From contig JAFGHP010000053.1 in the NCBI GenBank assembly GCA_016930055.1, positions 1-59,671 of the forward strand: a stretch of DNA of 59,671 bases, in the 5' to 3' direction. Each line of letters opens with the position of its first letter. Position 1 is the first letter of the stretch. The DNA comes from Candidatus Bathyarchaeota archaeon (GTDB lineage: Archaea; Thermoproteota; Bathyarchaeia; TCS64). Below are positions 5,357 to 39,260 of the stretch, piece by piece. Both the position numbers and the translations under genes were made by a program. The notes beneath the pieces were generated by a model. The model made no database searches and was not told the origin of the DNA. It saw nothing but the letters and a program-made list of their open reading frames with translations.

Positions 5357-5365
5357 TATTTTCAC

Positions 5366-17213: not shown

Positions 17214-17224
17214 GTGATGATAAA

Positions 17225-17698: not shown

Positions 17699-18795
17699 TT
17701 GATGTACCTTTTTTTACTATACCTTTTGGACCATGTCATCCTTCATCAGGTCATTTTCACGCCTCTTTAAAAGTTGATGGAGAACAAGTAGTGGAAGTAA
17801 TACCAGATCCAGGTTATCTTCATAGAGGGTTTGAAAAATTAATGGAATATAGAACATTTTTACAGAATTCTCCCTTAGTTGACAGAATCTGCATATTAGA
17901 TCCTTTTGCTGCTGAATTAGGTTATGTTAATGCTTCTGAAACTGTTTTGGATATAGAGGTTCCTGAGAGAGGTAAATTTATTAGAACTATAATGGCTGAA
18001 TTGGGTAGAATTTTGAGCCATACTACATGGATAGGTGTAATTTCTTTAGTTCTTGGTCTGGATACTGGGTGTAAAATTGCATTTGGAGATCGAGAATCAA
18101 TAATTAGAATTAATGAAAAAATTACTGGTGGTAGAATATATCCTTGTTATTTCTTACCTGGTGGTGTACGTAGGGATCTCCCAAAAAATTATCATGAATT
18201 GTTTGACGAATTATTTATTCGTCTTGAAAAAAATCTTAATCAATATGATTATCTAATTTTTGGCAATGAATCTTTTCGTGGTCGTTTAGAAAATATTGGT
18301 ATAATGGATGAGAAAGAAGCTATTGATCTCGGAGCAACTGGTCCAAATTTAAGGGCTACTGGATTGAAGACTGATCTCAGAAAAGATGAGCCTTATGAAG
18401 TTTATGAACAACTTAATTTTGATATCCCTGTTCAAACTAAAGGAGATGCTTTTTCTAGGTGTATGTGTAGAAGGCTTGAGATTGAACAAAGTATAAATAT
18501 TATCAAAGAAGCAATACAAAAAATTCCTGATGGAGAATATAAAAATAAAAATTTCAGACCTTTTACTAAAGCAAAAGAAAAAGAAACATATTTCTGCTGT
18601 GAATCAGCTAGAGGCGAACAATGTTATCATATGGTAAGTAACGGTCAAGACAAACCATATAGAGTCAAAGTTAGAGGACCAAGTTTTTCCCATACATTAG
18701 ATGAATTCCCTTATTTAGCTAAAAATTCATATATTGCTGACATTCCTGCGATATATTGGAGTTTGGACCCTTGTCCGGCAGACGTAGATAGGTGA
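17695..18795 (+). CDS. NuoD/[NiFe]-hydrogenase-large-subunit-like protein with CxxD in place of both CxxC motifs
   Basis: A 366-residue large subunit of the NuoD/group 4 hydrogenase family (PFFTIPFGPCHPSSGHFH, GYLHRGFEKLME, GATGPNLRATG). At the two metal-binding sites the motifs are RICILD (Cys66, Asp69) and DPCPAD (Cys360, Asp363). In true [NiFe] hydrogenases both are CxxC. Here the first, terminal Ni-ligand Cys is kept in each pair and the second, bridging Cys is Asp. NuoD of complex I normally keeps neither. The protein ends three residues after Asp363, so no cleavable tail exists. It is probably not a normal H2-activating enzyme; a different metal site or an Ehr-like non-catalytic role is possible. 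Confidence 0.85.
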   Translation: MIDVPFFTIPFGPCHPSSGHFHASLKVDGEQVVEVIPDPGYLHRGFEKLMEYRTFLQNSPLVDRICILDPFAAELGYVNASETVLDIEVPERGKFIRTIMAELGRILSHTTWIGVISLVLGLDTGCKIAFGDRESIIRINEKITGGRIYPCYFLPGGVRRDLPKNYHELFDELFIRLEKNLNQYDYLIFGNESFRGRLENIGIMDEKEAIDLGATGPNLRATGLKTDLRKDEPYEVYEQLNFDIPVQTKGDAFSRCMCRRLEIEQSINIIKEAIQKIPDGEYKNKNFRPFTKAKEKETYFCCESARGEQCYHMVSNGQDKPYRVKVRGPSFSHTLDEFPYLAKNSYIADIPAIYWSLDPCPADVDR

Positions 18796-18800
18796 TTAAA

Positions 18801-19169
18801 ATGCCTTTAAAAGATCTTTTAAAACCTTTTAAAACTTTAAAAAATATTAGCAAAAAACCTATGACCTTAGTTTTTCCAAAAGAATCTTTACCTCCAACAG
18901 AAAATTATAGAGGAAGGCAACTTCTTGATGTAAATAAATGTATAGGCTGTGGAATGTGCTCAAGGGTTTGCCCGAATGATGCCATAAATATGGTTGATTT
19001 TATGAATAAAAAATGTCCTCAGATCCACCTTGGTAAATGTTGCTTTTGTGCTTTATGTGCTGAAAACTGTCCTACAAATGCACTAACGATGACAAATCAA
19101 ATATTTATTGCAGGTTATGATAGATTCTTTGCTGTATATGATCCAGAAAAATTGTCGAAAAATGAATAG
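18801..19169 (+). CDS. NuoI-like 2[4Fe-4S] ferredoxin subunit
   Basis: A 122-residue ferredoxin-type subunit. Clusters are ligated by CIGCGMCSRVCP and CCFCALCAENCP. It should carry electrons from soluble ferredoxin or another donor to the NuoB-like subunit. The ATG at 18801 is preferred: AGGTGA sits five bases upstream, and the GTG at 18792 lies inside that site and overlaps the end of the NuoD-like gene. It is the last gene of the cluster; no NuoH or NuoL membrane subunit follows. Confidence 0.87.
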   Translation: MPLKDLLKPFKTLKNISKKPMTLVFPKESLPPTENYRGRQLLDVNKCIGCGMCSRVCPNDAINMVDFMNKKCPQIHLGKCCFCALCAENCPTNALTMTNQIFIAGYDRFFAVYDPEKLSKNE

Positions 19170-23464: not shown

Positions 23465-23503
23465 TTGTTTCGTTTACAGGTTGAAAGCATTAGTTTTTAA
23501 TCT

Positions 23504-23743
23504 TTACGCTTCTGTTTCATCCATGTAAGCTAAAACTTCTTTCCATAAATCAAGAGTCTCAAGAGCTTCTTTCTCATCAAGTACTTGAATTACAAATCCT
23601 GTATGCACCAGAACCCAGCTACCGATATTAACTAATCCCTTTTCCATCAAATCAATTATTGCTTCTCTTTTTATTCCCCCAAAATCAATAATTGCAGTTC
23701 TCCCATCAATGGATTCTACTTTACCTGGAATAGCTAGGCACAT
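23504..23743 (-). CDS. hypC: Hydrogenase maturation chaperone HypC/HupF
   Basis: A 79-residue chaperone that carries the Fe(CN)2CO precursor between HypD and the hydrogenase large subunit. It starts with the invariant MCLAIPGKV, in which Cys2 is the functional ligand, and continues with the OB-fold IDFGGIKREAIIDL and GSWVLVHTGFVIQVLDE. It is divergent from the Mvh-like hydrogenase genes, which fits its role in maturing that enzyme and the Ech-type enzyme at 41047. No other hyp genes lie in the window. Confidence 0.93.
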   Translation of the reverse strand: MCLAIPGKVESIDGRTAIIDFGGIKREAIIDLMEKGLVNIGSWVLVHTGFVIQVLDEKEALETLDLWKEVLAYMDETEA

Positions 23744-23967
23744 TATCTTCCATCTATGTAGTCGTCCCTTATATTCTAAACTAATTTTTATTTTATTTAT
23801 TTTTAAATGTTATGATTTTCGTTTTAATAAGAAGTTACTTTTTTATTCTTTTATAATCACACTTATTATACATACTAGCATAAACAATATATTCAGTAAT
23901 TATAATTGATACTGATACCTTTGCACGGATTTAACTTTAGTGAACTTATGTATCCGGAGTTGGTTAA

Positions 23968-24843
23968 ATGGTGAAACTTCTTTTATTAGGCTTATCTGGT
24001 GACTCTGGTTGCCAGGTAGCTGCAGTTGGATTACATGATAAACTCCTCAAAATATTAATGGGTAATGAGCTAGTTTATGCTCCTACATTAATTGATGTTA
24101 AAGAGATTCCTGAAAAAATTGATGTAGCTATAATTGAGGGTGGTTTAAGAACTAAACATGAAGTTGAGGTAATTAAAAAAATTCGTGCCAACTCAAATAT
24201 TTTGATATCACTTGGTTCATGTGCTTGTTTTGGAGGAATACCTGGATTAGCTAACACGGAGCATGGAAAGGTTCTTTTAAAAAAGATTTACACTGAACAA
24301 AAGGGGACTTCTGTTGGTGTTATCCCTGTAGTCGATGAATTGCTTTCAGGACAATTTCCAATTCATACTGCAGTTCAGGTTGATTATTTAATACCTGGTT
24401 GTCCACCAGAAATTAATGATATTGAATATACTCTAGTTACTTTATTAAATGGTGAAAAACCCACCAAATGTTTAACTGATGTTTGTGAGGATTGTCCCCG
24501 TGAAAGATTAGGGGTTTATTCAAATAAACTAAAACGAATCTTTGAAGAAGTAAGTGATCCCAAACGTTGCTTATTGGAGCAAGGATTTCTTTGTATGGGG
24601 CCTGCAACAATGGGTGGATGTGGAGCTCCTTGCCCTGCTGCTGGTATGCCATGTGATGGATGTAGAGGACCAACAATAAAAAATAGTGATCAAGGATTAA
24701 CAATGCTAGATGCTTTAACTAGTTTAATATCTGAAATGAAAGACAATTTTGATCTTACACAACACATCGGAATCTTATATCGTTATACTTATCCAGATTC
24801 TAATCTAGTAAAAAATTTTATTGGAGGACAAAAAAATGAATGA
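23968..24843 (+). CDS. mvhG: Group 3-type [NiFe]-hydrogenase small subunit, MvhG-like
   Basis: Small subunit carrying Fe-S clusters between the [NiFe] site and HdrA. LGSCACFGGI and IPGCPPEINDI are the proximal-cluster motifs. C-terminal cysteines (CLTDVCEDCP and CMGPATMGGCGAPCP...CDGC) hold further clusters. The N-terminal motif, normally SGCSGC, reads SGDSGC: Asp12 replaces the first proximal-cluster Cys and Cys15 remains. GGAGTTGG precedes the ATG. The stop overlaps the large-subunit start by eight bases. The operon continues into two HdrA-MvhD fusions. Confidence 0.87.
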   Translation: MVKLLLLGLSGDSGCQVAAVGLHDKLLKILMGNELVYAPTLIDVKEIPEKIDVAIIEGGLRTKHEVEVIKKIRANSNILISLGSCACFGGIPGLANTEHGKVLLKKIYTEQKGTSVGVIPVVDELLSGQFPIHTAVQVDYLIPGCPPEINDIEYTLVTLLNGEKPTKCLTDVCEDCPRERLGVYSNKLKRIFEEVSDPKRCLLEQGFLCMGPATMGGCGAPCPAAGMPCDGCRGPTIKNSDQGLTMLDALTSLISEMKDNFDLTQHIGILYRYTYPDSNLVKNFIGGQKNE

Positions 24844-26233
24844 ACAAATAGTGATTAATCCATTAACAAGACTTGAAGGAACTGGAAATGTTAAAATCGA
24901 AGTTGAGTCAGGAAAATTAAAAGATCTTCAACTTACTATTGCCGTAGCGCCTCGTTTTTTTGAGTATCTACTTCTAAATAAACCCGCAGAAGATGCTCCT
25001 AGAATATCAGAACGTATATGTGGTATCTGCTATGTTAACCATCATCTAGTTTCAGTCAAAACAATTGAAGATGCTTGGGGAGTAACAATTCCAGAAGTAG
25101 CTACTTTATTAAGAAGAACATTAAATGCAGCAAGTTTTATCACTAGTCATACATTACATTTAGCTTTTTTAGCTCTTCCTGATCTAATTCCAATTAAGAA
25201 CAGAAATATAGTAGGTGTTGCTGAAACTTTACCAGATATAGCTGATGCAGCACTTAGACTACACGAATATGGTAACAAAGTTGTATCAGAAATTGGGGGG
25301 AGGATCGTTCAAGTAGTAACTGCTGTTCCTGGTGGAATGACAAAAGGTTTGACAGGTGAAATCAGATATAAACTTCTTCGTGAAGGTAGGATGGCTTTAA
25401 ATAATGTAAAAAAATTCGCTGATACAATTTTTAATATTTATGAAAATCGCATAAATGACCCCTATGAATATATGGGTTTAAAGGTCCCATACTTAGGTTT
25501 AGTAAATTCTAAAGGCGAATACGAAATATACGATGGGGATCTTAGAATAAAGGGAAATAATGGCAATATTTTACTACAAATTCCGCCACAAGAATATTAT
25601 AAATATTTTGAAGAAACTTCTAGTGGACATAGCTTTACTAAAATAACTTATCTTAAAGAAATGGGTAAAAAGACTGGTTTAAATCGTGTTGGTCCTTTGG
25701 CAAGGATTAACGTAGTTGATGGTTTTAAATGGCAAGTTTCCACTGAGTATTTAAAAAGTTATTCAAAATTATTTAAAAGGCCTTCTGATGATACTGCAGC
25801 TTATAACCTCGCTAGAACTATTGAACTTGTAGCTTCTGTAGAAGAAGTTCTTGAAGGATTAGCTAATGATATAATTACCTTAGAAAGAACACGAATACCT
25901 GTTAAATCTAAAGAGGGGTGGGGGTCAGCATTTACAGAGGCTCCAAGAGGATTATTACACCATACTTATGAAACAGATGCAAATGGAATAATAAAAAACG
26001 TAAATATCGTTGCACCTACAACTTTTAATCATAAAAGTATTGAAAATAATATTCGCATTTATGCAGAACATAATATTGATGGTTTAATTTCAACAGATAA
26101 ACGATCTGATGTTTTATGGGGTATAGAAAAAATTGTAAGAGCTTATGATCCTTGTTTAAGCTGCAGCGTCCATATGGTTGAAATTGATCTAACAATAGAT
26201 GGCGAAAAGACAATTGACAGGGGGTCTAAATAA
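24836..26233 (+). CDS. mvhA: Group 3-type [NiFe]-hydrogenase large subunit, MvhA-like
   Basis: Catalytic subunit, 465 residues from the ATG at 24836, which has GGAGG seven bases upstream; a TTG at 24821 is less likely. Both metal motifs are intact: RICGICYVNHH (Cys62, Cys65) and DPCLSCSVH (Cys440, Cys443, His446). A 19-residue tail after His446 is probably removed by an endopeptidase during maturation. It oxidises H2 (or evolves it) and passes electrons through MvhG and MvhD to HdrA. It overlaps mvhG upstream and the first HdrA fusion by one base downstream. Confidence 0.92.
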   Translation: MNEQIVINPLTRLEGTGNVKIEVESGKLKDLQLTIAVAPRFFEYLLLNKPAEDAPRISERICGICYVNHHLVSVKTIEDAWGVTIPEVATLLRRTLNAASFITSHTLHLAFLALPDLIPIKNRNIVGVAETLPDIADAALRLHEYGNKVVSEIGGRIVQVVTAVPGGMTKGLTGEIRYKLLREGRMALNNVKKFADTIFNIYENRINDPYEYMGLKVPYLGLVNSKGEYEIYDGDLRIKGNNGNILLQIPPQEYYKYFEETSSGHSFTKITYLKEMGKKTGLNRVGPLARINVVDGFKWQVSTEYLKSYSKLFKRPSDDTAAYNLARTIELVASVEEVLEGLANDIITLERTRIPVKSKEGWGSAFTEAPRGLLHHTYETDANGIIKNVNIVAPTTFNHKSIENNIRIYAEHNIDGLISTDKRSDVLWGIEKIVRAYDPCLSCSVHMVEIDLTIDGEKTIDRGSK

Positions 26234-28563
26234 TGGGATCTTTAGTAATTTTGGACACTTTTGGTGAGACTTTAAAAGAAAAACTTGATGTTGATTCAAT
26301 TGAAGAGTATGCTAAAAAACAAGAAAATGTCTTAGTTACTTATCAAACTCACCGTTTAAATCAAAATATTATGAGTGAGTTAATTAGAGAGGTTCAAGAA
26401 AAAAACGGAATAGACTCTTTAAGCAACGTAATAGTGTTAACCGGTTCAAGAGTCCGTCTGGAAATTCCTTTGAAAAAAGCTATGGAATCTGCTGGTTTGG
26501 ATCCTAATTTATTAGTAATGTCTAATATACGAGAACAAGCTGCTTTAGTTCATAATTTCTCAGAGGCTACTGAAAAAGCAAAAGCTTTGTTAAGAATTGC
26601 TTTAGTTAAAGCAAAGAATGCTACTCCTGTTGAAAGGAAAGTAATTCAAAGATTTAATGAAGTTTTAATTATTGGAGGAGGAGTGGCTGGTATTCATGCT
26701 GCCCTTGACTTAGCTAAACTTGGTTTAATGGTCCATCTTGTTGAAAGAGAACCAACCATTGGTGGCTTAATGCCTCTTCTTGGAAAAACTTTCCCTGAAG
26801 ATACATGTGCTATTTGCATCGGTGGTCCCAAGATGGCGGATGTTGGTAATGAACCTAACATAGAAATATTGGATTATAGCGAAGTTGAAGCAATTATCCG
26901 TTTACCTGTTGGTTATAGAGTGCATATTAAAAGAAAACCGCGTTATATTGATCCAGAAAAATGTGTAGCTTGTGGACAGTGTACTGAACGTTGCCCCGTT
27001 TCTGTTTTAGATGAATATAATGGTGGCATTAGTTTAAGGAAATCTGTTTATTTACCCTATCCTAACGCTGTACCACGGAAACACCTAATTGATGAATCAT
27101 CATGCCTTTACTTGACAAAAGGTAGTTGTCGTTTATGTGAACGTGTTTGTCCTAATCAGGCTATTGATTTTAACCAGAAAGTCACTTACAAAGATCTGTA
27201 TGTAGGCTCTATTATTGTAGCTACTGGTATTGATAATTTCGATCCTAAACCATATCCACGTTTTGGTGCACAATATCCAAATGTAATTGATCAATTTCAA
27301 TTGGCTCGTTATCTTGATGGTGAAGGACCAACTTCAGGCATATTAACTAGACCAAGCGATGGTAAAAAACCTCAAAAAATTGTAATGGTGCAATGCGCTG
27401 GTTCAAGAGATCCTGAACTGAATCCCTATTGTAGTCGATATTGTTGTATGGCTGCTATGAAACATGCTCAAGAAATTAAGGTTAATCAGGGAGGTGATAT
27501 TGAAATCACTATTTTATTCAAAGATATTCGTGCAGGTGGAAAATACTATGAAGAATTCTACAATAGAATCAAAAATTTGGGAATTAACTTTATTTATGGT
27601 AATTTTAAGGAAGTTAAGCAATCTGATGATAAATTATTTGTAGAGTATATTGATGGTCAAGATAAAAATAATGTCTTAGAAAGTGATTTAGTAGTACTTT
27701 CAACTGGTATGATTCCAAGTCGTGGAACTCAAGAATTGGCAGAAAAACTTGGATTAGAAATAGACAAATATGGATTTTTTGATGAAGTAGATATTAAAGT
27801 AGCTAGTACAATTACTAAAAATCCAGGTATTTTTATTGCAGGTGCATGTCACGCCCCAAAAGATATTCCAGAGTCTGTTGCACAAGCAAGTGCAGCAGCA
27901 GCTATGGTAGCCACTTATTTAATGAAAGAAATTGATGCTTCTAAACCTATTCTCACACCAATTGTAGACCCTGAAGTTTGTGGTAGATGTGGTGTTTGTG
28001 TTGATCTATGTCCATATAATGCCATATCTATGCCACCGGAAGGACCTGTTGTAATAGATGACATCTTATGTCAGAGTTGTGGATTATGTATCTCTAGTTG
28101 CCCAACAAGAGCTCTTGATAACTCTAACTTTGGGTTCGATTCACTTATGGATCAAGTTAAAGCAGCCCTTAAAGATAATTCTGAACCTAAAATTATTGGT
28201 TTTGCTTGCAATGATTGTGGCTATAGACTTTTAGATGCTGCAGGTTTTTATAATTCTAAATACTCGTCAGCATTCATACCAATTTATGTTCCATGTATGA
28301 GTTTAGTTAGTTTACGACATATTACTAGTGCATTAGATCTTGGTGCTAAAGGAGTAATGTTGATCGGATGTTTGGAAGATCGGTGTCATTATCATAAAGG
28401 AGTAGATCATGCTGAAACTCAGCTCAAAATTCTAGAAAATATCTATAAATATTTTGGAAGACAGATGCCAATTCGGGTTTTAAAGAGCTGTGGTTCTATG
28501 CTTGAACAATTTTTAACGGAATTGGATTCTCTTACAACAGAAATTTTGGAGGTAAAACAATGA
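26233..28563 (+). CDS. HdrA-MvhD fusion lacking the N-terminal HdrA cluster
   Basis: A 776-residue heterodisulfide-reductase A homologue fused to MvhD. FAD domain begins at VLIIGGGVAGIHAALDL (residue 144), with TCAICIGGPKM following. Ferredoxin clusters lie at CVACGQCTERCP (244-254) and near the end (CGRCGVCVDLCP, CQSCGLCISSCP). The last 120 residues are an MvhD [2Fe-2S] domain (CNDCGYRLLDAAG, GCLEDRCHYHKG). The N-terminal domain has none of the four Cys that ligate a cluster there in canonical HdrA and in the next gene. It probably forms a complex with that paralogue and the Mvh-like hydrogenase. HdrB and HdrC are absent from the window. Confidence 0.88.
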   Translation: MGSLVILDTFGETLKEKLDVDSIEEYAKKQENVLVTYQTHRLNQNIMSELIREVQEKNGIDSLSNVIVLTGSRVRLEIPLKKAMESAGLDPNLLVMSNIREQAALVHNFSEATEKAKALLRIALVKAKNATPVERKVIQRFNEVLIIGGGVAGIHAALDLAKLGLMVHLVEREPTIGGLMPLLGKTFPEDTCAICIGGPKMADVGNEPNIEILDYSEVEAIIRLPVGYRVHIKRKPRYIDPEKCVACGQCTERCPVSVLDEYNGGISLRKSVYLPYPNAVPRKHLIDESSCLYLTKGSCRLCERVCPNQAIDFNQKVTYKDLYVGSIIVATGIDNFDPKPYPRFGAQYPNVIDQFQLARYLDGEGPTSGILTRPSDGKKPQKIVMVQCAGSRDPELNPYCSRYCCMAAMKHAQEIKVNQGGDIEITILFKDIRAGGKYYEEFYNRIKNLGINFIYGNFKEVKQSDDKLFVEYIDGQDKNNVLESDLVVLSTGMIPSRGTQELAEKLGLEIDKYGFFDEVDIKVASTITKNPGIFIAGACHAPKDIPESVAQASAAAAMVATYLMKEIDASKPILTPIVDPEVCGRCGVCVDLCPYNAISMPPEGPVVIDDILCQSCGLCISSCPTRALDNSNFGFDSLMDQVKAALKDNSEPKIIGFACNDCGYRLLDAAGFYNSKYSSAFIPIYVPCMSLVSLRHITSALDLGAKGVMLIGCLEDRCHYHKGVDHAETQLKILENIYKYFGRQMPIRVLKSCGSMLEQFLTELDSLTTEILEVKQ

Positions 28564-30965
28564 GTGATAATAATGAGCTTAGAATAGGTGTTTTCGTATG
28601 CAGATGTGGTTTAAATGTAGCTAAAAGTGTTGATACTACATCATTAGTTGAATATTCTTCAAATTTACTTGGTGTTATTTATGCTGAGGAAATTGAGTTC
28701 GCGTGTAGTGAAATAGGATTAAAACAAATAAGCGAATCTATAAGGGATAACAAAATTAATAGAGTAGTAATAGCTGGATGCTCACCTTGGCTTCATGAAA
28801 AAACATTCCAACGTATGATGGAACGCGTTAAACTCAACCGATATCTTCTTGAAATAGCTAATATCCGTGAACAAGTAGCTTTTCTTTATTCTAACCAGAT
28901 ACTGAAAGCAACTGAGAAAGCTAAATTTATTATAAATGCTGCTGTCGAACGTGTAAAAACATTAGAAGAAATTGGTAGAAAAAGTGTACCAATTCAAAAA
29001 TCTGTGCTAATTATTGGTGGAGGAGTAGCAGGAGTTGAAGCAGCGAAACGTTTAGGTGATTTAGGAATAGAAGTATACCTTATCGAGAAAACACCTTTCA
29101 TTGGTGGGCACGCACTTCAACTTGGTTCTGTTTTCTCTACAGAGGATTGTGGAACATGTGTCTCCCCATGTGAAAATGAACTTCATAGAAGATGCTTTTA
29201 TAGAAACACAATCTCTTTTCACCCTTATATCAACATAATGACATCAACAGAATTAAAAGAAATTAATGGACATATTGGAGACTATAAAGCAACTTTGACT
29301 ATAAAACCACGTGGCGTAAATCAAGAACTTTGTATGGGATGTAATAAATGTGAAGAAGCCTGCCCTGTTGAAATACCTGATCCATTTAATTTTGGTCTGA
29401 GTAAAAGAAAAGCGATTTATATTTTAAGCGATCAAGCTCTGCCTAGAATTTATGCTATAGATCCAGCTACTTGTATAAAATGTAATAAATGTAGTGAAAT
29501 ATGTCCTGTTAACGCTATCGATTTATCAGAAGAAACACGTGAAGTAACAGTTGATGTTGGTGCTGTTTTAGTCACTACTGGTTTTGAATCATTTAATCCA
29601 GAAGGGCTTTATACATATGGAGAAAATCCGGATGTAATAACTCAGTTACAATTAGCTAGAATGCTTGATATGAGTGGTCCCACGAAAGGTAAAGTGATTC
29701 GTCTAAGTGATGGTGTTGAACCTAAAAGAATTGCTATGATTCAATGTGTTGGTTCAAGAGATCCAAAAATCCACGAGTATTGTAGTAAAATTTGTTGTGG
29801 GATTGCTGTAAAACACGCTACAGACATTATGGAGAGGTATCCTGAATCAGGTTTAGCTATTATCAACAAAGATATTCGTTTGACTGGGAAACATTATGAG
29901 GATTATTATTATAGGGCAAAAAATTTGGGGGTGCGTCTTCTACGTGGTGAAGTTCAACAAGTAATAAAAACTGATAATAATGATATCAGACTTGAAATAA
30001 TTGATGAATTTGGTGAACATAAAAATCTTTATGTTGATATGCTAGTACTTTCAACTGGATTAGAACCTTCTAAAGGAACAAAAGAACTAGCAGAAATTCT
30101 TCGTATTCCCTTATCTCCTGACAGCTTTTTTGCTGAACGCGGACCAAAATTAGAACCGTTAGATACTGTTGTAGATGGAATCTTTATTGCTGGGGCATGT
30201 CACGGTCCTAAAGACATACAAGAAAGTATCACTCAAGCTTTAGGTGCAACTAGTCGGATAGCTAGTATCCTAATTAAAGGAGAGATGGAAATAGACCTAG
30301 CTAAAGCTTGGGTTGATGAAGAAAAATGTGTAGGATGTGGAGCATGCGCATCAATATGTCCTTTTAAAGCAATAGAATGGAGTGCTTTCGGTGAACCAAA
30401 AATAATTGAGGCTGCTTGTGAGGGGTGTGGTATATGTGCAGCAGTCTGTCCTGTATCTGCAATGCAATTAAGGCACTATAAAGATGATCAATTGATTCCT
30501 AAAATTAAAGCAATTATGACACCAAAATGGCTTAGTGAAGAAAAGATAGATGAACCTGTTATTATCGCGTTTGCGTGTCAATGGTGTAGCTACGCTGCTG
30601 CTGATGCTGCTGGTAACATGGGTCTTGAATATCCAGAGAATATTCGAATAATCAGAGTGCCATGCACAGGAAGAATTGATGCTCTACACATAATATCAGC
30701 ATTCAAGAATGGGGCTGATGGTGTGATAATTAGTGGATGCTTACCCACACAGTGCAACTACTTAACAGGGAATTTAGAAGCCATTGATCGGGTTGATATA
30801 ATGAAAAAAACTTTGGACGCTCTAAAAATTGGTAGTGAAAGACTTGAAACAATATTTACTTCAGCTTGTATGCCCACTTGGTTAGTAGCTTTATTTACAG
30901 ATTTCACCGAACGGATTAAAAAATTAAATGAAAAACAAAAAATTGTTATCGAACAAATACCTTAA
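28560..30965 (+). CDS. HdrA-MvhD fusion, complete type
   Basis: An 801-residue paralogue of the preceding protein, overlapping it by four bases, with GGAGGT before the ATG. The N-terminal domain keeps the HdrA cysteines (VCRCG at 14-16, Cys49, Cys74). FAD motif IIGGGVAGVEAAKRL starts at 151. DCGTCVSPCENE follows, then ferredoxin motifs CMGCNKCEEACP and CIKCNKCSEICP, a late pair CVGCGACASICP and CEGCGICAAVCP, and a C-terminal MvhD domain (CQWCSYAAADAAG, GCLPTQCNYLTGN). HdrA bifurcates electrons from H2 to ferredoxin and a disulfide in methanogens. The final acceptor here is unknown since HdrBC are not nearby. Confidence 0.9.
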   Translation: MSDNNELRIGVFVCRCGLNVAKSVDTTSLVEYSSNLLGVIYAEEIEFACSEIGLKQISESIRDNKINRVVIAGCSPWLHEKTFQRMMERVKLNRYLLEIANIREQVAFLYSNQILKATEKAKFIINAAVERVKTLEEIGRKSVPIQKSVLIIGGGVAGVEAAKRLGDLGIEVYLIEKTPFIGGHALQLGSVFSTEDCGTCVSPCENELHRRCFYRNTISFHPYINIMTSTELKEINGHIGDYKATLTIKPRGVNQELCMGCNKCEEACPVEIPDPFNFGLSKRKAIYILSDQALPRIYAIDPATCIKCNKCSEICPVNAIDLSEETREVTVDVGAVLVTTGFESFNPEGLYTYGENPDVITQLQLARMLDMSGPTKGKVIRLSDGVEPKRIAMIQCVGSRDPKIHEYCSKICCGIAVKHATDIMERYPESGLAIINKDIRLTGKHYEDYYYRAKNLGVRLLRGEVQQVIKTDNNDIRLEIIDEFGEHKNLYVDMLVLSTGLEPSKGTKELAEILRIPLSPDSFFAERGPKLEPLDTVVDGIFIAGACHGPKDIQESITQALGATSRIASILIKGEMEIDLAKAWVDEEKCVGCGACASICPFKAIEWSAFGEPKIIEAACEGCGICAAVCPVSAMQLRHYKDDQLIPKIKAIMTPKWLSEEKIDEPVIIAFACQWCSYAAADAAGNMGLEYPENIRIIRVPCTGRIDALHIISAFKNGADGVIISGCLPTQCNYLTGNLEAIDRVDIMKKTLDALKIGSERLETIFTSACMPTWLVALFTDFTERIKKLNEKQKIVIEQIP

Positions 30966-30976
30966 TTTTTTTAAAA

Positions 30977-31204
30977 TCATTCTGAAATTAAACAAGTTAA
31001 AGTTGAAACTACGCCAGACATGTTTCTAATGTCGACAACAGTCCGTTTAATTCCCATAGTAGTTGTGTCTTCACATAATGTATAGATATCATATGGTCCA
31101 TAAATCATATTTGCTTCTATTACCTTTGGATGAGACTTTAGTTTTTGATATAAATTAGCATCTGTTTCGGACCTACTCTTAATTAAAATTAATGCCCGTT
31201 CCAG
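30977..31204 (-). CDS. Stand-alone Lrp/AsnC effector-domain (RAM) protein with apparent CTG start
   Basis: Unlisted small gene. The frame reads LERALILIKSRSETDANLY... to VVSTLTCLISE, 75 residues, an AsnC ligand-binding domain with the characteristic MIYGPYDIYTL. It aligns with two neighbours (31406 and 31657), which begin MEKAL. An in-frame stop lies three codons before the CTG at 31204, and no ATG, GTG or TTG lies between, so CTG is the only start that restores the family N-terminus. GGTGA lies seven bases upstream of it. Without an HTH it probably binds an amino acid and modulates a partner regulator or enzyme. Confidence 0.7.
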   Translation of the reverse strand: MERALILIKSRSETDANLYQKLKSHPKVIEANMIYGPYDIYTLCEDTTTMGIKRTVVDIRNMSGVVSTLTCLISE

Positions 31205-31405
31205 TTTACTTCACCAGATGATACGTACAATAAATAGTATAAATACATTTCCAGTGTTTAAATAGCTAGTTAGTTTTTTCTCATTTGAAAATATAAAATA
31301 TCTTTTTACTTAACAAATAGTTAAAAATATAAAAAATTTTTTATTATTATTTTTTTAAACTGGATAACTTTAAATTAACTTATAATTAGTTTATAATTGA
31401 TTGTT

Positions 31406-31636
31406 ATGGAAAAAGCGTTGCTTTTAGTTGTTTTAGGCCCAAGATTTATACGAGAAACAATCGATAAGATTAGAAAGATACCAGGTGTTAATTCTGCACA
31501 TTTCCTTTATGGTCCATATGACATGTATATAATGATTGAATCTGAAAACAGAGGATCCTTGAGAGAAATTGTCGTAAAAATTCGTGAGGTTGAAGGCCTT
31601 AGATCGACAATTACTTGTAATATTTTACAGCAATAA
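31406..31636 (+). CDS. Stand-alone Lrp/AsnC effector-domain (RAM) protein
   Basis: A 76-residue single-domain protein. MEKALLLVVLGPRFIRETIDKIRKIPGV and FLYGPYDMYIMIESE are the RAM-domain beta-alpha-beta hallmarks, with LRSTITCNIL at the end. The ATG at 31406 is preferred over a TTG nine bases upstream because the paralogues start MEKAL. Such domains oligomerise and bind amino acids. It is the middle one of three consecutive paralogues placed between the HdrA genes and NfnB. Confidence 0.8.
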   Translation: MEKALLLVVLGPRFIRETIDKIRKIPGVNSAHFLYGPYDMYIMIESENRGSLREIVVKIREVEGLRSTITCNILQQ

Positions 31637-31656
31637 AAATAATTTTTATTGTTAAA

Positions 31657-31893
31657 TTAACTTACTATAAGCAATGTAGTTGTCGATATTACTGAAGGGA
31701 ACCCCCTAATTTCCATGACTAATTTTGTCATCTCAAGTGATCTCTCAACTTCTGCAATAAGATAAATATCATATTCGCCAAAAGTCATGCCCGACTCTTT
31801 AACTTCAGGCCTTTCCTTTAATCTTCCAAGTACTTCTTCGATACAATCTTCACCTAGACATTCTATTTTTAGAAGAATCAGAGCTTTTTCCAT
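31657..31893 (-). CDS. Stand-alone Lrp/AsnC effector-domain (RAM) protein
   Basis: A 78-residue paralogue of the two proteins to its left: MEKALILLKIECLGEDCIEEVLGRLKE, MTFGEYDIYLIAEVE and FPSVISTTTLLIV. No helix-turn-helix domain is present. It is convergent with the gene at 31406 and oriented like the nfn genes that follow. It may sense amino-acid or 2-oxoacid status; with glutamate dehydrogenase nearby a nitrogen role is attractive but unproven. Confidence 0.8.
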   Translation of the reverse strand: MEKALILLKIECLGEDCIEEVLGRLKERPEVKESGMTFGEYDIYLIAEVERSLEMTKLVMEIRGFPSVISTTTLLIVS

Positions 31894-31944
31894 TTGGTAT
31901 CATTATTATTAAATATTCTATGTATTTAACATTATCAGAAAAAA

Positions 31945-33348
31945 TTATTGTAAAATGCCTTTTTTTGATAATATATATTGATGCATTGATTTTGCAGCTA
32001 GTTTTCCAGCTCCCATTGCACTTATTACTGTTGCAGCTCCACTTACTACATCTCCCCCAGCAAATACTCCGGGAATCTTTGTCTCCATAGAATCTTCATT
32101 TACTATTATTGTTCCATGTCTCGTCGTTTCCAAACCTTGGGTAGTCTGTTGTATTATTGGATTTGGTGACTGTCCAATAGCAATTATTGCAGTGTCTAAT
32201 TCTATTGTAAATTCGCTTCCAGGTATTGGTTCTGGGCGTCTTCTTCCACTTGAATCTGGTTCACTAAGTTTCATGTGGATGCATTCTACTTTCTCTAAAA
32301 ATCCTCTTGAATTCCCAATAAATCTAATTGGATTTGTTAAAAACTCGAAATGTATTCCTTCTTCCTCAGCGTTTTCTACTTCTTCGATTCTTGCAGGCAT
32401 TTCATCTCTTCCACGCCTATAAATAATGTTTGATTGTTCTGCTCCAAGTCTCAACGCACAACGAGCAGAGTCCATAGCAACATTGCCTGCTCCTATTACT
32501 CCTACGCGTTTACCGACTCTTATAGGAGTATCATATTCAGGGAATTTGTATGCTTTCATTAAGTTAGTTCTTATGAGAAATTCATTAGCAGAATAGACAC
32601 CTTTCAAATTTTCTCCTGGAATTATCAAAAAATTTGGTAAACCTGCTCCAGAGCCAATAAATATTGCGTCATATCCATCATCAAAAAGTTCTTGTATAGT
32701 AGCTAATCTACCGATGGTTGAATCTAATTTAATTTCAACACCTAAGCTGTTAACATACTCCACTTCATATTGTACGATTTCTTTGGGAAGCCTGAATTCA
32801 GGGATTCCGTACATAAGTACCCCACCAGCAGCGTGGAGACTTTCAAAAATTGTTACTTTATGCCCGAGTTTAGCTAAATCCGCAGCTACAGTTAAACCAG
32901 CTGGTCCTGATCCGATTACTGCAACTCTTCCACCTTTAAATTGGATTTCCTGTTTTTCAATTTTTGAATATTTTCTTTCCCAATCTGAAGCAAATCTTTC
33001 TAGTCTCCCAATAGCTATTGGGTCTCCTCTAATTCCAAGAACACAATTTTTTTGGCATTGATCTTCTTGAGGACAAACTCTTCCACATACTGCAGGTAAA
33101 GAATTTTTTTCTTTAATCTTTTTAGCTGCTGAAATATAATTTCCTTCTTTAATTAATTTTATAAACTCTGGTATTGGTACTTCAACAGGGCATCCTTTGA
33201 CACATTGTGGTTTAGGGCAATTTAAACATCTTGAAGCTTCTTCTAAAGCCATCTCAGCATTGTAACCAATAGCAACCTCATCAAAATTTTTAATTCTTTC
33301 ATTTGGCTCCTGCCTTGGCATATCAACTTGGCTTTTTATTGCAGTCAT
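31945..33348 (-). CDS. nfnB: NfnB / GltD-like FAD-NAD(P)H oxidoreductase large subunit
   Basis: A 467-residue subunit of NADH-dependent ferredoxin:NADP+ oxidoreductase (also called sulfide dehydrogenase subunit alpha). N-terminal Fe-S motifs are CLNCPKPQCVKGCP and CGRVCPQEDQCQKNC. FAD motif VIGSGPAGLTVAADLAKLG, NADP motif VIGAGNVAMDSARCALRLGA with IIYRRGRDEMPA, and IPGVFAGGDVVSGAATV follow. Nfn bifurcates electrons between NADPH, NADH and ferredoxin. NfnA ends two bases upstream, so the pair is one operon. It can alternatively act as a glutamate synthase-like subunit, but no GltB is present. Confidence 0.9.
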   Translation of the reverse strand: MTAIKSQVDMPRQEPNERIKNFDEVAIGYNAEMALEEASRCLNCPKPQCVKGCPVEVPIPEFIKLIKEGNYISAAKKIKEKNSLPAVCGRVCPQEDQCQKNCVLGIRGDPIAIGRLERFASDWERKYSKIEKQEIQFKGGRVAVIGSGPAGLTVAADLAKLGHKVTIFESLHAAGGVLMYGIPEFRLPKEIVQYEVEYVNSLGVEIKLDSTIGRLATIQELFDDGYDAIFIGSGAGLPNFLIIPGENLKGVYSANEFLIRTNLMKAYKFPEYDTPIRVGKRVGVIGAGNVAMDSARCALRLGAEQSNIIYRRGRDEMPARIEEVENAEEEGIHFEFLTNPIRFIGNSRGFLEKVECIHMKLSEPDSSGRRRPEPIPGSEFTIELDTAIIAIGQSPNPIIQQTTQGLETTRHGTIIVNEDSMETKIPGVFAGGDVVSGAATVISAMGAGKLAAKSMHQYILSKKGILQ

Positions 33349-33350
33349 TT

Positions 33351-34166
33351 TTATACTCCTTCATAAAGAACCATAGCTATTTTCTCATTGGGGTTATAGA
33401 ACCTCATACGAGAAATTAATTCATCAAAATCTACTTGATGCCCATCAAAATCTGGCCCATGCACACAAGCAAACCTAGTAGTATTCCCTACAGTGACTCT
33501 GCAAGCTCCACACATTCCAGTTCCATCAACCATAATTGGAAATAAGTTCACTGTAGTAGGAATATTATATGATTTAGTGTATTCAGAAACTATTTTCTGC
33601 ATGCTAGTTGGACCCATAGTAAAAACATGGTCAAACCTTTTTTGCTGTAAAATTTCTTTCAGGAATTCTATTCCTTGGCGACCCTCTGAACCATCATCAG
33701 TAGCTACATAAAAATCATCTGAATATTTTCTAGCTTCATCAATTAATATTAAACGGTCTTTACTTCTTGCACCAATTATTGTTGTAATATTATTTCCAGA
33801 ACCCTTTAGAACTTTCATTTGAAATAAAAGTGCACCAACCATTACACCCCCACCAACGCACAAAATATTACCATAATCTTTTGTATCTGTCGCGTTACCT
33901 AGAGGACCTGCGAGATTAAGAATCGATTCGCCTTCATTTAATTTACCTAATAATATACTAGATTTTCCCACCTCAGCAAAAATTAATTGAATGGTTCCTT
34001 CATCCTTATTTGAATTAGATATAGTGATAGGAAACCTTTCCCCTTTTTCATGAATTCTAATAATTACAAATTGTCCTGGTTTAGTTTTTTTGGCAACAGC
34101 AGGCGCTTTAACTTCAATTAACTTAATATTAGGTGAAAGGGCTTCCTTATGAACGATTTCGTACAT
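33351..34166 (-). CDS. nfnA: NfnA / ferredoxin-NADP reductase-like small subunit
   Basis: A 271-residue PyrK/SudB-type flavoprotein. KKTKPGQFVIIRIHEKGERFPITISN is the FAD-binding FNR motif, and ILCVGGGVMVGALLFQM the NAD-binding region. A C-terminal [2Fe-2S] motif (GMCGACRVTVGNTTRFACVHGP) matches NfnA. Together with NfnB it forms the bifurcating transhydrogenase NfnAB, which balances NADH, NADPH and reduced ferredoxin. It is the first gene of the two-gene operon; glutamate dehydrogenase, an NAD(P)-linked enzyme, precedes it in the same direction. Confidence 0.9.
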   Translation of the reverse strand: MYEIVHKEALSPNIKLIEVKAPAVAKKTKPGQFVIIRIHEKGERFPITISNSNKDEGTIQLIFAEVGKSSILLGKLNEGESILNLAGPLGNATDTKDYGNILCVGGGVMVGALLFQMKVLKGSGNNITTIIGARSKDRLILIDEARKYSDDFYVATDDGSEGRQGIEFLKEILQQKRFDHVFTMGPTSMQKIVSEYTKSYNIPTTVNLFPIMVDGTGMCGACRVTVGNTTRFACVHGPDFDGHQVDFDELISRMRFYNPNEKIAMVLYEGV

Positions 34167-34282: not shown

Positions 34283-35632
34283 TTAAGCGTATGTACCTTG
34301 AGCAATCATTGCATCAGCAACTTTTAAGAAGCCTGCAATGTTCGCACCCATTACGTAGTTACCCGGTTTACCGAATATTTTTGCTGTTTCATAAGCTGCT
34401 TTATGAATATTTACCATGATTCCATGTAATTTTTCGTCAACTTCGTCAAAGCTCCAGAAGTAACGTTGACTGTTTTGAACCATTTCTAGTCCACTTGTGG
34501 CTACTCCTCCAGCATTGCTTGCTTTACCTGGAGAGAATAATACACCTGCTTCTTGGAGTGTTTTTATTGCTTCAAGATCACATGGCATGTTTGCGCCTTC
34601 AGTTACAGCAATTACTCCATTGTCTACAAGGGTTTTAGCATCTTTTCCTAGTAATTCGTTTTGTGTTGCACATGGAAATGCGAGGTCTGCTTTAACTCCC
34701 CAAGGGGTCTTTTTTGCTTCATAAGTTACTCCACTGTATTTTTCTGCATATTCTTTGATTCTTCCTCTTTTTACATTCTTTAATTGAAGGATATACGCAT
34801 GTTTTTCATCATCGATTCCTGCTGGATCATAAATGTATCCATCACTGTCACTCATTGTTAATACTTTTGCGCCAAGTTGAATTAATTTTTTAGCAGCAAA
34901 TTGAGCTACATTTCCTGACCCTGAAATTAAAGCTGTTTTACCTTTTATTGCATGATTTTTGGTCTTCAACATTTCTTCAGAGAAATATACTGCCCCAAAT
35001 CCAGTTGCTTCTGTCCTCGCTAAACTACCTCCATATACCGGTGCTTTTCCTGTTAATACACAAGTCCCATGTATATCTGTGATTTTTCTATATGTACCAT
35101 ACATATAGCCAATTTCACGTGCACCAACACCAATATCACCAGCAGGAACATCTAAAAATTGCCCAATGTGTTTGTACATCTCTAAAATAAAGCTTGTACA
35201 AAACGATTCCACTTCGTCATCTGTTTTCCCTTTAGGATCGAAATCTGAACCACCTTTAGCACCACCCATTGGTAAACTTGTTAAACTGTTTTTGAATGTT
35301 TGTTCAAAACCTAAAAACTTCATTACTCCAAGATTTACAGTCGGATGGAAACGGAAACCACCCTTATATGGTCCAATTGCACTATTATATTGAACACGAT
35401 ATCCCCTATTTACTTGAATTTTGCCTTCCTTATCTTTCCATGGAACACGGAATTGAACAATTCTTTCTGGTTCAACAATTCTCTCAAGAATGGCATTTTC
35501 CTTATACTTTGGGAATTTAATAATGGCGGGTTCTATTGTGGCTAAAACTTCGTATGTGGCTTGGTGGAACTCCTTCTGGAGTGGGTCCTTCTCAACTATA
35601 CCATTGTAAATACTCTCAACATATTTATCCAA
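34283..35632 (-). CDS. gdhA: Glutamate dehydrogenase, bacterial/NADP-type length
   Basis: Hexameric GDH, which interconverts glutamate and 2-oxoglutarate plus ammonia. Catalytic segment GGFRFHPTVNLGVMKFLGFEQTFKNSL and PMGGAKGGSDFDPKGK (active-site Lys), with GDIGVGAREIGYMYG and the cofactor motif SGSGNVAQFAAKKL. At 449 residues with an N-terminal extension (ESIYNGIVEKDPLQKEFHQ...) it resembles the bacterial NADP-type GDH rather than the ~415-residue archaeal type, which hints at horizontal transfer. The TTG start at 35632 has GAGG about six bases upstream. Beside nfnAB, it links ammonia assimilation to NADPH supply. Confidence 0.93.
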   Translation of the reverse strand: MDKYVESIYNGIVEKDPLQKEFHQATYEVLATIEPAIIKFPKYKENAILERIVEPERIVQFRVPWKDKEGKIQVNRGYRVQYNSAIGPYKGGFRFHPTVNLGVMKFLGFEQTFKNSLTSLPMGGAKGGSDFDPKGKTDDEVESFCTSFILEMYKHIGQFLDVPAGDIGVGAREIGYMYGTYRKITDIHGTCVLTGKAPVYGGSLARTEATGFGAVYFSEEMLKTKNHAIKGKTALISGSGNVAQFAAKKLIQLGAKVLTMSDSDGYIYDPAGIDDEKHAYILQLKNVKRGRIKEYAEKYSGVTYEAKKTPWGVKADLAFPCATQNELLGKDAKTLVDNGVIAVTEGANMPCDLEAIKTLQEAGVLFSPGKASNAGGVATSGLEMVQNSQRYFWSFDEVDEKLHGIMVNIHKAAYETAKIFGKPGNYVMGANIAGFLKVADAMIAQGTYA

Positions 35633-36027: not shown

Positions 36028-37944
36028 ATGGATCAAGAGCTACTTATTGCATTAACTATAGGCGCTCCAACCCTTGCTGGTTTAGGGTGCTTAATATTAA
36101 ATGATAAAATTGCTCGTAAAGTTATCGTAAGTTTATCAGCAATTTTGCTTATCGGTTCCTCTTTTATATTATTTAATGGTGGTGGTTTTAGTTATGAACC
36201 TAACTCAATTTTAGATACATTAGTCTTATTTTTTGATTTAATGTTATTAGTTTATTTTTTTTATGTTGGTATAAAATTTAAAAATATTTTAGTTATCGGG
36301 CTTTCTCTTTTACAATTATTACCTGTATTATATTTTGAATTTATACTTCATGGAGTTGAAGGAACCCCAACTTTCCTTATTGATGAACTTAGTCTTTTAA
36401 TGAGTCTTATTATTAGTATTGTTGGTTCTGTAATAGTAATTTATGGTTTAAATTATATGGATGAGCATGAAGAGCATTTGCATATTCAGAAAAGTCGTCA
36501 AAACCGCTTTTTCTTTTTTATGTTGCTTCTTCTTGGTGCAATGCATGGATTAGTTTTTTCAAATAATCTTTATTGGTTGTATTTCTTTTGGGAAATTACA
36601 ACTCTTTGTAGTTATGAATTAATAAGACATGATGGAACTGAAATTGCTATTAAAAATGGTATTACTGCGTTATGGATGAATTTAATTGGTGGAGTAGCTT
36701 TCGTCTTAACCTTGTTTATTGGTTATTATTATTTTAACTCTATAGCAATAGACGAAATTTTAAAAATGTATCAGAGTCCAGTTGTTTTATTATTTTTAGC
36801 GGTATTATCCTTCGCTGCATTCACGAAATCTGCGCAGTTTCCCTTTAATAGTTGGTTACAAGGTGCTATGGTTGCGCCTACTCCCGTTTCTGCATTACTT
36901 CATTCTAGCACCATGGTTAATGCGGGTATTTATTTAATCTTAAGAATTGCACCAGCATTAAATAATTCAGCACTTAGTTATAGTATTGCACTTGTTGGTG
37001 CTTTTACTTTTTTAACTAGTGCGATTTTAGCTCTTAATGAAAGAGTATCGAAAGGAATCTTAGCTTATTCAACAATTGGTAATTTAGGATTAATCTTCTT
37101 ATGTATAGGAATAAATACTCCTCTGAGTTATGCTTCTGCTTTAGCTCTTTTAATTTTTCACTCTGTATCGAAGGGTTTACTTTTCTTATGTGCTGGTGTT
37201 GTGGAAAATAGAGTTCATAGTAGATTAATTGAAGATTGGGAAGGATTAATCAGGAGACTTCCAGCTACGAGTATAATAATGATAACTGCGATGTTGAGCA
37301 TGTTCTTGCCTCCTTTTGGGATGCTTCTGGGTAAATGGGTCGCAATAGAAGCTCTTTCATCTTCATATTATATTTCATCGATGCTCATTATTCTTTTATT
37401 AGTCCTTGGAAGTGCTGCAACTTCCGTTTATTATATTAAATGGTTAAGTTACCTTACTGTATTACCATTAGATGGTAAAAACTTTGAAAGTGAAAAAATC
37501 CCATGGTCTTATGTTATTTCCTTGTTAACTTTATTTGGTTTAATAATAATAATGGGTACAGGCGTTTCTTCAGTATTTAATCTTTTAATATTACCAACTT
37601 TACCTTCAAATTATTATACAAATATCGATGCTAGTATAATTAATTTAAATACTGGTATTGGAAGTTTTGTGACTTATCCACTATGGTTAATAATTGCAGC
37701 AATGGTTTTCTTTGGTTACACATTATCTAAAAGAAAAGGGGGAACAGTTAAACCACCTTATTTAAGCGGAGAAAATGTAGTGGACGATCCTACTGTTTTC
37801 CATACTACCGCTGATGGAATAGCTAAAATTGAAGTATCTGCTCAATTTTTTGAAAACGAATTTAGTAATAACCGTTTATTGGTTTTGTCAAAAATTTTAG
37901 GATCAATAATTATTATGTTACTGTTTTTCGCGGTGATGTTGTGA
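36028..37944 (+). CDS. echA: EchA-like antiporter-type membrane subunit (NuoL/MrpA family)
   Basis: First gene of the membrane hydrogenase operon: 638 residues with about 14-16 hydrophobic helices. The proton-channel residues typical of NuoL/MrpD are visible: Glu in YFFWEITTLCSYE and Lys in FAAFTKSAQFPFNSWLQGAMVAPTPVSALLHSSTMV. It should pump H+ or Na+ when electrons flow through the peripheral arm. Only one antiporter-type subunit is encoded, as in Ech rather than Mbh, which carries Mrp-like extras. The stop overlaps the next gene (TGATG). Confidence 0.9.
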   Translation: MDQELLIALTIGAPTLAGLGCLILNDKIARKVIVSLSAILLIGSSFILFNGGGFSYEPNSILDTLVLFFDLMLLVYFFYVGIKFKNILVIGLSLLQLLPVLYFEFILHGVEGTPTFLIDELSLLMSLIISIVGSVIVIYGLNYMDEHEEHLHIQKSRQNRFFFFMLLLLGAMHGLVFSNNLYWLYFFWEITTLCSYELIRHDGTEIAIKNGITALWMNLIGGVAFVLTLFIGYYYFNSIAIDEILKMYQSPVVLLFLAVLSFAAFTKSAQFPFNSWLQGAMVAPTPVSALLHSSTMVNAGIYLILRIAPALNNSALSYSIALVGAFTFLTSAILALNERVSKGILAYSTIGNLGLIFLCIGINTPLSYASALALLIFHSVSKGLLFLCAGVVENRVHSRLIEDWEGLIRRLPATSIIMITAMLSMFLPPFGMLLGKWVAIEALSSSYYISSMLIILLLVLGSAATSVYYIKWLSYLTVLPLDGKNFESEKIPWSYVISLLTLFGLIIIMGTGVSSVFNLLILPTLPSNYYTNIDASIINLNTGIGSFVTYPLWLIIAAMVFFGYTLSKRKGGTVKPPYLSGENVVDDPTVFHTTADGIAKIEVSAQFFENEFSNNRLLVLSKILGSIIIMLLFFAVML

Positions 37945-39259: not shown

Positions 39260-39260
39260 A

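Follow-up and report, generated by a model that had tools for sequence, protein, structure and literature searches.

Two unequal HdrA-MvhD proteins encoded with a [NiFe] hydrogenase and without adjacent HdrBC in a bathyarchaeotal genome

Organization of the hydrogenase-HdrA gene cluster

A genome assigned to Candidatus Bathyarchaeota archaeon (assembly GCA_016930055.1) encodes a [NiFe] hydrogenase together with two different HdrA proteins, each fused to an MvhD domain. The respective gene cluster is located on contig JAFGHP010000053.1, of which a stretch of 59,671 nucleotides (termed the window) was analyzed; the genome comprises 1.79 Mb and is 94 % complete. Bathyarchaeia occur widely and in large numbers in anoxic sediments, and their phylum is here called Thermoproteota, a name we take from their GTDB placement. 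To our knowledge, nearly all work on HdrA has dealt with systems in which HdrBC is the high-potential partner. Genomes are designated by G-numbers (G000, that of the window) and loci by L-numbers; C68 is the contig of the window and C2 a second contig of G000, while g1 and g5 denote the window's genus and its sister genus.

The genes mvhG, mvhA, hdrA1-mvhD and hdrA2-mvhD form a tightly packed operon with overlapping reading frames at 23968-30965 (+ strand), encoding (i) an MvhG-like hydrogenase small subunit (23968-24843; Pfam PF01058, 1.5e-23; NCBIfam VhuG, 3e-76, under that model's cut-off), (ii) an MvhA-like large subunit (24836-26233; PF00374, 1.8e-31; VhuA, 3.5e-93), (iii) HdrA1 (26233-28563, 776 amino acids) and (iv) HdrA2 (28560-30965, 801 amino acids). 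Translation of mvhA is likely to start at ATG 24836 rather than at TTG 24821 of the program-made list of open reading frames (ORFs), and both nickel-ligand CxxC motifs of its product are intact (RICGICYVNHH, DPCLSCSVH). HdrA1 and HdrA2 are both full-length HdrA proteins matching the solved HdrA chains 5ODC and 8RVU, and both carry an FlpD/MvhD domain (PF02662) at the C-terminus (residues 654-772 and 668-789, respectively). The original prediction of overlapping genes for two long HdrA-MvhD fusions is thus borne out, the two frames sharing 4 bases. The MvhD domain of HdrA2 (30561-30926, + strand) is canonical (149 bits to FlpD; VhuD, 1.6e-39), that of HdrA1 (28192-28551, + strand) divergent (84 bits to FlpD), and the VhuD model scores 135 bits for HdrA2 versus 46 for HdrA1. 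The best NCBIfam model for both proteins is HdrA2, with 656 and 858 bits missing the cut-off of 1100.

Cluster ligands of HdrA1 and HdrA2

Ligands were mapped by alignment to HdrA of M. thermolithotrophicus (5ODC), the N-terminal domain of which holds cluster cysteines at positions 11, 13, 46 and 71. HdrA2 possesses a complete set of cluster cysteines, those of the N-terminal domain being located at 14, 16, 49 and 74. The corresponding positions of HdrA1 are occupied by D8, F10, N43 and G71, and residues 1-130 contain no cysteine at all, in agreement with the asymmetry originally noted. Elsewhere HdrA1 retains the equivalents of Cys194 and Cys197 (C192 and C195), both inserted-ferredoxin clusters, both C-terminal ferredoxin clusters, the CX11CX3CC cysteines and five MvhD cysteines; the Cys197-equivalent is present in both subunits (C195 of HdrA1, C200 of HdrA2). 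Since the same D/F/N/G replacement recurs in HdrA1 of G002, G003 and, over the part present, G004, a sequencing error or chance does not account for it.

The N-terminal domain of HdrA1 (residues 1-135; 26233-26637, + strand) has lost its cluster though its fold persists, so that calling the protein stripped of this domain would be wrong. In the AlphaFold monomer, residues 1-130 are predicted with local confidence values (pLDDT) of about 75-92, mostly above 80, and residues 1-647 superimpose on 8rvy_A (Z 38.8, root-mean-square deviation 3.3, 567 aligned); with a mean pLDDT of 70 and a poor inserted ferredoxin region, only the fold elsewhere in the model was used. Ratios of nonsynonymous to synonymous substitution (dN/dS) amount to about 0.04-0.12 across the HdrA1 domains and about 0.09 for the N-terminal domain, with dS near saturation. 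A degenerating HdrA1, or one serving as a structural scaffold with HdrA2 doing all the redox work, would fit a clusterless domain that evolves at about twice the rate of the core. It is nevertheless highly improbable: the low dN/dS ratios show the domain to be still constrained, the remaining cofactor ligands are all intact within genus g1, and in genus g5 the loss of the N-terminal cluster hit HdrA2 rather than HdrA1.

Two additional cysteines were observed in HdrA2 beside the Cys197/Cys200 pair (residues 197-212, encoded at 29148-29195): Cys212 in a HRxC motif, found in all HdrA2 orthologs, and Cys204, restricted to genus g1. An altered cluster site at this position is possible from the sequence.

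Orthologous pairs and phylogeny

Strong HdrA1 orthologs were detected in at least 9 of 256 genomes of the class, with fragments in further g1 and g5 genomes; since the profile search evaluated no more than the few best candidates of each genome, all counts are lower bounds. Named relatives whose HdrA1 is 68-82 % identical are metagenome-assembled genomes (MAGs) of Candidatus Bathyarchaeota. Outside the class, orthologs occur in G450 and G557 of the same phylum, below which the score drops from 940 to 779 bits. Orthologous pairs are found in five families, i.e., the window's own and four more of the phylum. The order MvhG-MvhA-HdrA1-HdrA2, for which a search of other genomes had been proposed, is present in genera g1 and g5 with HdrA2 fused to MvhD; G033, G052, G450 and G557 possess a separate MvhD gene after HdrA2.

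HdrA1 and HdrA2 share 35 % sequence identity and belong to two old paralogous clades (support 100/100 and 100/99), to which each cluster contributes one HdrA1 and one HdrA2. The same clusters come together in the MvhA tree, and this agreement between the HdrA and MvhA trees indicates that the gene set was inherited together. Retention of the same set by relatives in turn argues for a real conserved complex.

The sister clade of HdrA2 comprises single HdrA-MvhD proteins (L063:6339-8759, L089:8126-10534, L129:9626) with alanine at position 356 (see below) and mostly degraded N-domain cysteines; those of L063 and L089 are encoded within MvhG-MvhA-HdrA-HdrC-HdrB clusters. In other genomes, single-HdrA clusters of the order HdrA-MvhD-MvhG-MvhA lack HdrBC (L090:8503-13416, L136:6250-10827); HdrBC-free operons are therefore not unique to the HdrA pair. 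Selenocysteine was considered for distant HdrA proteins and dismissed, the single in-frame TGA of several matches being an ordinary stop near the 3' end (L132, L133).

HdrBC at the locus and in the genome

No HdrB or HdrC gene is present within the window's cluster, nor does one adjoin any orthologous pair where flanks are visible (genera g1 and g5; G033, G052, G450, G557). The linkage of HdrB/HdrC to the same pair in relatives, which had been named as the observation that would speak against a novel complex, was hence not encountered at these loci. Moreover, a genome search of G450 (98 % complete) yielded neither an HdrB match nor a CCG domain, which renders function without HdrBC credible. 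For the genome of the window, the predicted absence of HdrBC holds at the locus but not beyond it: contig C2 carries two HdrBC pairs. One of its clusters encodes a fused HdrA'-HdrA protein of 999 amino acids followed by MvhD-HdrC-HdrB-MvhG-MvhA.

HdrBC might accordingly be borrowed in trans from C2, yielding an ordinary HdrABC-MvhAGD complex with an unusual HdrA dimer. Co-location of MvhAGD and HdrABC is not required (PMC6085437), and the HdrA2 sister clade does reside in clusters with HdrC and HdrB. Yet C2 supplies its own HdrA for both HdrBC pairs and its own MvhAG in its Mvh cluster, and neither the flanks of the orthologs nor the genome of G450 provide HdrB. This arrangement is distinctly unlikely.

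The other HdrBC pair of C2 is part of an HdrC-HdrB-TfrB-TfrA-HdrA cluster flanked by fumarase-like and malic-enzyme-like genes (L009:5269-11319), an arrangement also observed in G029 and G016; its HdrA has an MvhD-like tail without the cysteines. Within the window, a GlcD-like FAD oxidase adjoins an HdrD/GlcF-like protein that contains two CCG domains (4184-6811), probably forming a hydroxyacid dehydrogenase module. Due to its distance of 17 kb, its position on the opposite strand and its hydroxyacid dehydrogenase-like nature, this module was rejected as a partner of the complex.

Reciprocal cluster loss in sister genera

The distant orthologs possess complete N-domain ligands in both subunits (the HdrA1 domain of G557 being read upstream of the called start). 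In genus g1, HdrA1 lacks the N-terminal cluster. In genus g5, the N-terminal cluster of HdrA1 is kept and its inserted-ferredoxin ligands are gone (KKPF and -CCI); HdrA2 retains only one of the four N-domain cysteines (SWPC) and lacks half of the ligands at one inserted cluster. In the fused HdrA'-HdrA protein of C2, the first half contains Cys197 and the inserted ferredoxin without the N-terminal domain, and the second half contains the N-domain cysteines without Cys197 and the inserted ferredoxin. Across g1, g5 and the C2 fusion, the surviving N-terminal cluster on one subunit thus always has an intact inserted-ferredoxin cluster opposite to it on the partner subunit. This pattern fits the published path, in which ferredoxin-bound flow runs through an N-domain cluster that Cys197 of the partner subunit closes (Chadwick et al., PMC9012536).

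Loss of the N-terminal cluster on opposite subunits in g1 and g5 supports, on comparative rather than structural grounds, HdrA1:HdrA2 to be an obligate heterodimer with a single surviving cross-dimer outlet. Together with conservation of the pair in five families and the lack of adjacent HdrBC, it also favors the asymmetric HdrA heterodimer with a hydrogenase that was originally suggested. The opposite losses in sister genera represent a natural experiment mapping the electron path across the dimer.

Candidate electron acceptors

An unidentified high-potential acceptor had been proposed for the complex. Pfam searches located metV-metF beside the cluster in three related lineages: 19 bp after mvhA on the same strand in G052, and as divergent neighbours of hdrA1 in G450 (105 bp) and G557. 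This adjacency suggests methylene-tetrahydropterin as the ancestral acceptor. In Sporomusa ovata, MetV and MetF bind HdrA in pull-downs (PMC9430772). In G033, metV-metF adjoin another cluster (HdrA-HdrC-HdrB) and genes for carbon monoxide dehydrogenase/acetyl-CoA synthase (CODH/ACS) adjoin that of the pair; in genus g5, MetVF is located with CODH/ACS and not with the HdrA pair; and PorGDAB is encoded directly upstream of the cluster in G002 and G005.

Considering these adjacencies and the Sporomusa pull-downs, H2-driven reduction of methylene-tetrahydropterin via MetVF on the HdrA pair could be both ancestral and present, with a MetF-type acceptor still in use in the window's organism. We regard this as very unlikely, because MetV had no match in any of the six g1 genomes, including G000, the sole MetF of G000 adjoins MetE-like genes and looks biosynthetic, and the MetVF genes of g5 lie apart from the pair. 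For the first two of these reasons MetVF was discarded as acceptor in G000. Searches of G000 for CdhC and FrhB also gave no match, and neither the carbonyl branch of the Wood-Ljungdahl pathway nor F420 via FrhB was retained. The original acceptor claim hence gains a candidate at the level of the family and loses it in genus g1. In view of the missing MetV, CdhC and FrhB, and of neighbours that are ferredoxin-linked (PorGDAB, NfnAB and glutamate dehydrogenase), the best guess for the window's complex is H2/ferredoxin exchange in fermentation.

Flavin site and bifurcation

Glu356 and Lys409 have been used to distinguish bifurcating from non-bifurcating HdrA flavins (PMC9430772, PMC12054007). According to the alignment, Glu356 of M. 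thermolithotrophicus HdrA is replaced by alanine in both window subunits (A358 of HdrA1, codon 27304-27306; A366 of HdrA2, codon 29655-29657; both + strand). Among 60 compared HdrA sequences, position 356 is Glu in 36 and Ala in 22, the latter being limited to HdrA1, HdrA2 and the HdrA2 sister clade; Lys409 is retained in 59 of the 60, including both window subunits. Ala356 is shared by the orthologs of g1, g5, G033 and G052 (exceptions being Ser in one g1 HdrA2 and an unreadable HdrA1), and HdrA1 of G450 and G557 has kept both Glu356 and Lys409.

The alanine in both subunits makes bifurcation by the window's complex doubtful as judged from sequence, and weakens this part of the original prediction, in favor of which the conserved Lys409 still counts. 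A bifurcating, H2-oxidizing complex would reduce ferredoxin and a high-potential acceptor by means of a bifurcating FAD in one HdrA subunit. It could draw on the hydrogenase, two FAD domains with Lys409, a complete ferredoxin outlet on HdrA1 and the Glu356 of the G450 and G557 orthologs, and related Archaeoglobi clusters have been proposed to bifurcate (PMC10945360). Given Ala356 in the window and in four groups of orthologs as well as the failure to find MetV, CdhC and FrhB in G000, such a complex appears unlikely.

Proposed function

The reading that we put forward, with an even chance of being right, is one soluble complex with a group-3c-type hydrogenase and an obligate HdrA1:HdrA2 heterodimer, which would perform H2/ferredoxin exchange without HdrBC and without classical bifurcation. 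The MvhD domain of HdrA2 is the most likely docking site of MvhAG, as it is canonical and its unfused counterpart adjoins mvhG in G052, G450 and G557; the divergent MvhD of HdrA1 would then be left for another partner. Electrons may travel via the C-terminal ferredoxin domains and the FADs to the N-domain cluster of HdrA2, predicted to be closed by Cys195 of HdrA1, and leave through the inserted ferredoxin domain of HdrA1 to free ferredoxin. The family probably originated as an H2/ferredoxin complex tied to MetVF (methylene-tetrahydropterin reductase) in Wood-Ljungdahl archaea. As for direction and physiology, the g1 complex most likely shuttles electrons between H2 and ferredoxin while amino acids or pyruvate are fermented; classical bifurcation would not be expected there, since MetV is gone, CdhC and FrhB were not found in G000 and Glu356 is missing at both flavin sites.

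Several points weigh against this reading. Ala356 alone is no proof against bifurcation, Lys409 being intact. The two HdrBC pairs of G000 could dock in trans, and gene absences are uncertain in a MAG that is 94 % complete. HdrA2 keeps a Cys197-equivalent that is needless opposite a clusterless HdrA1, and the electron path and docking side are modelled on structures of other proteins.

One may further speculate, quite tentatively and with the balance against it, that the pairs represent a separate Thermoproteota machine. Here, an HdrBC-free MvhAG-HdrA1:HdrA2 complex would couple H2 to ferredoxin and, via docked MetVF, to methylene-tetrahydropterin, with the bifurcating flavin in HdrA1 (G450 and G557 retain Glu356 and Lys409 there); the g1 form would be derived, the loss of its acceptor module and of Glu356 in both subunits having turned it into a one-path H2/ferredoxin exchanger. 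If a conserved HdrBC-free hydrogenase-HdrA heterodimer exists, in one case in a genome devoid of HdrB, the HdrA core would prove able to work with different acceptors or with no acceptor at all, with bearing on hydrogen and ferredoxin handling in Bathyarchaeia.

Comparison with known systems

Complementary pairs of tandem or fused heterodimeric HdrA (HdrA5/6, 12/13, 3/4) have been published for anaerobic methanotrophic archaea (ANME), in which the cluster of one copy is predicted to be closed with Cys197 across the interface (Chadwick et al. 2022, PMC9012536). The window's pair resembles them in consisting of two unequal copies, one without the N-domain cluster. However, one ANME copy loses the whole N-terminal domain and the other Cys197, whereas the domain is kept without ligands in HdrA1 and both window subunits have the Cys197-equivalent; the window's pair furthermore carries MvhD on both copies, includes a hydrogenase and has no HdrBC in the cluster. 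The C2 fusion of G000 fits the ANME pattern better, in fact exactly.

Archaeoglobi (Ca. Methanoglobus hypatiae) possess an MvhAGD-HdrA-HdrA-QmoC/HdrC cluster for which a function independent of heterodisulfide has been proposed (PMC10945360), and which likewise combines a hydrogenase with two HdrA and no HdrB. This cluster differs by its QmoC-HdrC membrane module for menaquinone, none of which was seen in the window's cluster (no such ORF in 23465-31944; not sought genome-wide). With the Hdr-type methylene-tetrahydrofolate reductase of acetogens (MetVF-HdrABC-MvhD of Moorella and Sporomusa; PMC9430772), G052, G450 and G557 share the link between MetVF and HdrA/MvhD, but the archaeal relatives have MvhAG and no HdrBC, and MetV is absent from genus g1. 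Compared to methanogenic HdrABC-MvhAGD (5ODC), the MvhA, MvhG and MvhD domains and the full HdrA fold with FAD and ferredoxin domains are alike; the absence of HdrBC from the cluster, two distinct HdrA, loss of one N-terminal cluster and Ala for Glu356 in both are not. The HdrA-MvhD domain order of both proteins is that of type Ia HdrA (HdrA2 of Methanosarcina; PMC5296606, PMC12054007), which works as HdrA2B2C2 with F420H2, unlike the window's paired copies with a hydrogenase, for which FrhB was not found and model scores lie below the cut-off.

In the literature searched for HdrBC-free hydrogenase-HdrA pairs, the Archaeoglobi cluster was the only close match found. The novelty originally claimed is therefore reduced: complementary HdrA pairs, HdrB-free MvhAGD-HdrA-HdrA clusters and MetVF-Hdr complexes are published. 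We found no account in this literature of a Thermoproteota clade that combines a hydrogenase with HdrA1 and HdrA2 but not with HdrBC, of its link to metVF, of the common loss of Glu356 or of clusters lost reciprocally.

Neighbouring genes and other redox operons

Divergent from mvhG, an ORF for 79 amino acids (23504-23743, - strand; MCLAIPGKV...) encodes what we take, from its N-terminal motif, to be a HypC/HupF-like hydrogenase maturation chaperone. Convergent with hdrA2, three genes on the - strand encode an NfnB-like NADPH-binding subunit (31945-33348; TIGR01316 above cut-off), an NfnA-like FAD/NAD-binding subunit (33351-34166; NF004862 above cut-off) and a glutamate dehydrogenase-like protein (34283-35632; named by sequence similarity of the ORF). 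The NfnB-like neighbour is kept in genus g1 (synteny in L049, L058, L087), and a glutamate dehydrogenase-like gene also adjoins the HdrA pair in genus g5 (L056, L060). Between hdrA2 and nfnB, two small ORFs (31397-31636 and 31657-31893) resemble AsnC-type single-domain proteins. The gaps were inspected for an overlooked gene of a ferredoxin or HdrC, and this idea was dismissed, the small ORFs being AsnC-type-like (31397-31893) and HypC-like (23504-23743), with neither HdrBC nor QmoC among them. A scan for promoters and terminators with bacterial models gave no more matches than shuffled sequences.

The window contains two further redox modules. A complex-I-like NuoB-C-D-I module, the second of its kind, is encoded at 16788-19169, with a NuoD devoid of nickel-ligand cysteines. 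The other, at 36028-42508, is a group-4-type membrane hydrogenase-like operon, the NuoD-like subunit of which has kept both nickel-ligand motifs (RICGICNYIH, DPCISC). It includes a NuoC-GltD fusion (39240-41054) composed of Complex1_30kDa, Fer4_20 and NAD(P)-binding domains, and its gene content suggests an NAD(P)H-linked energy-converting hydrogenase.

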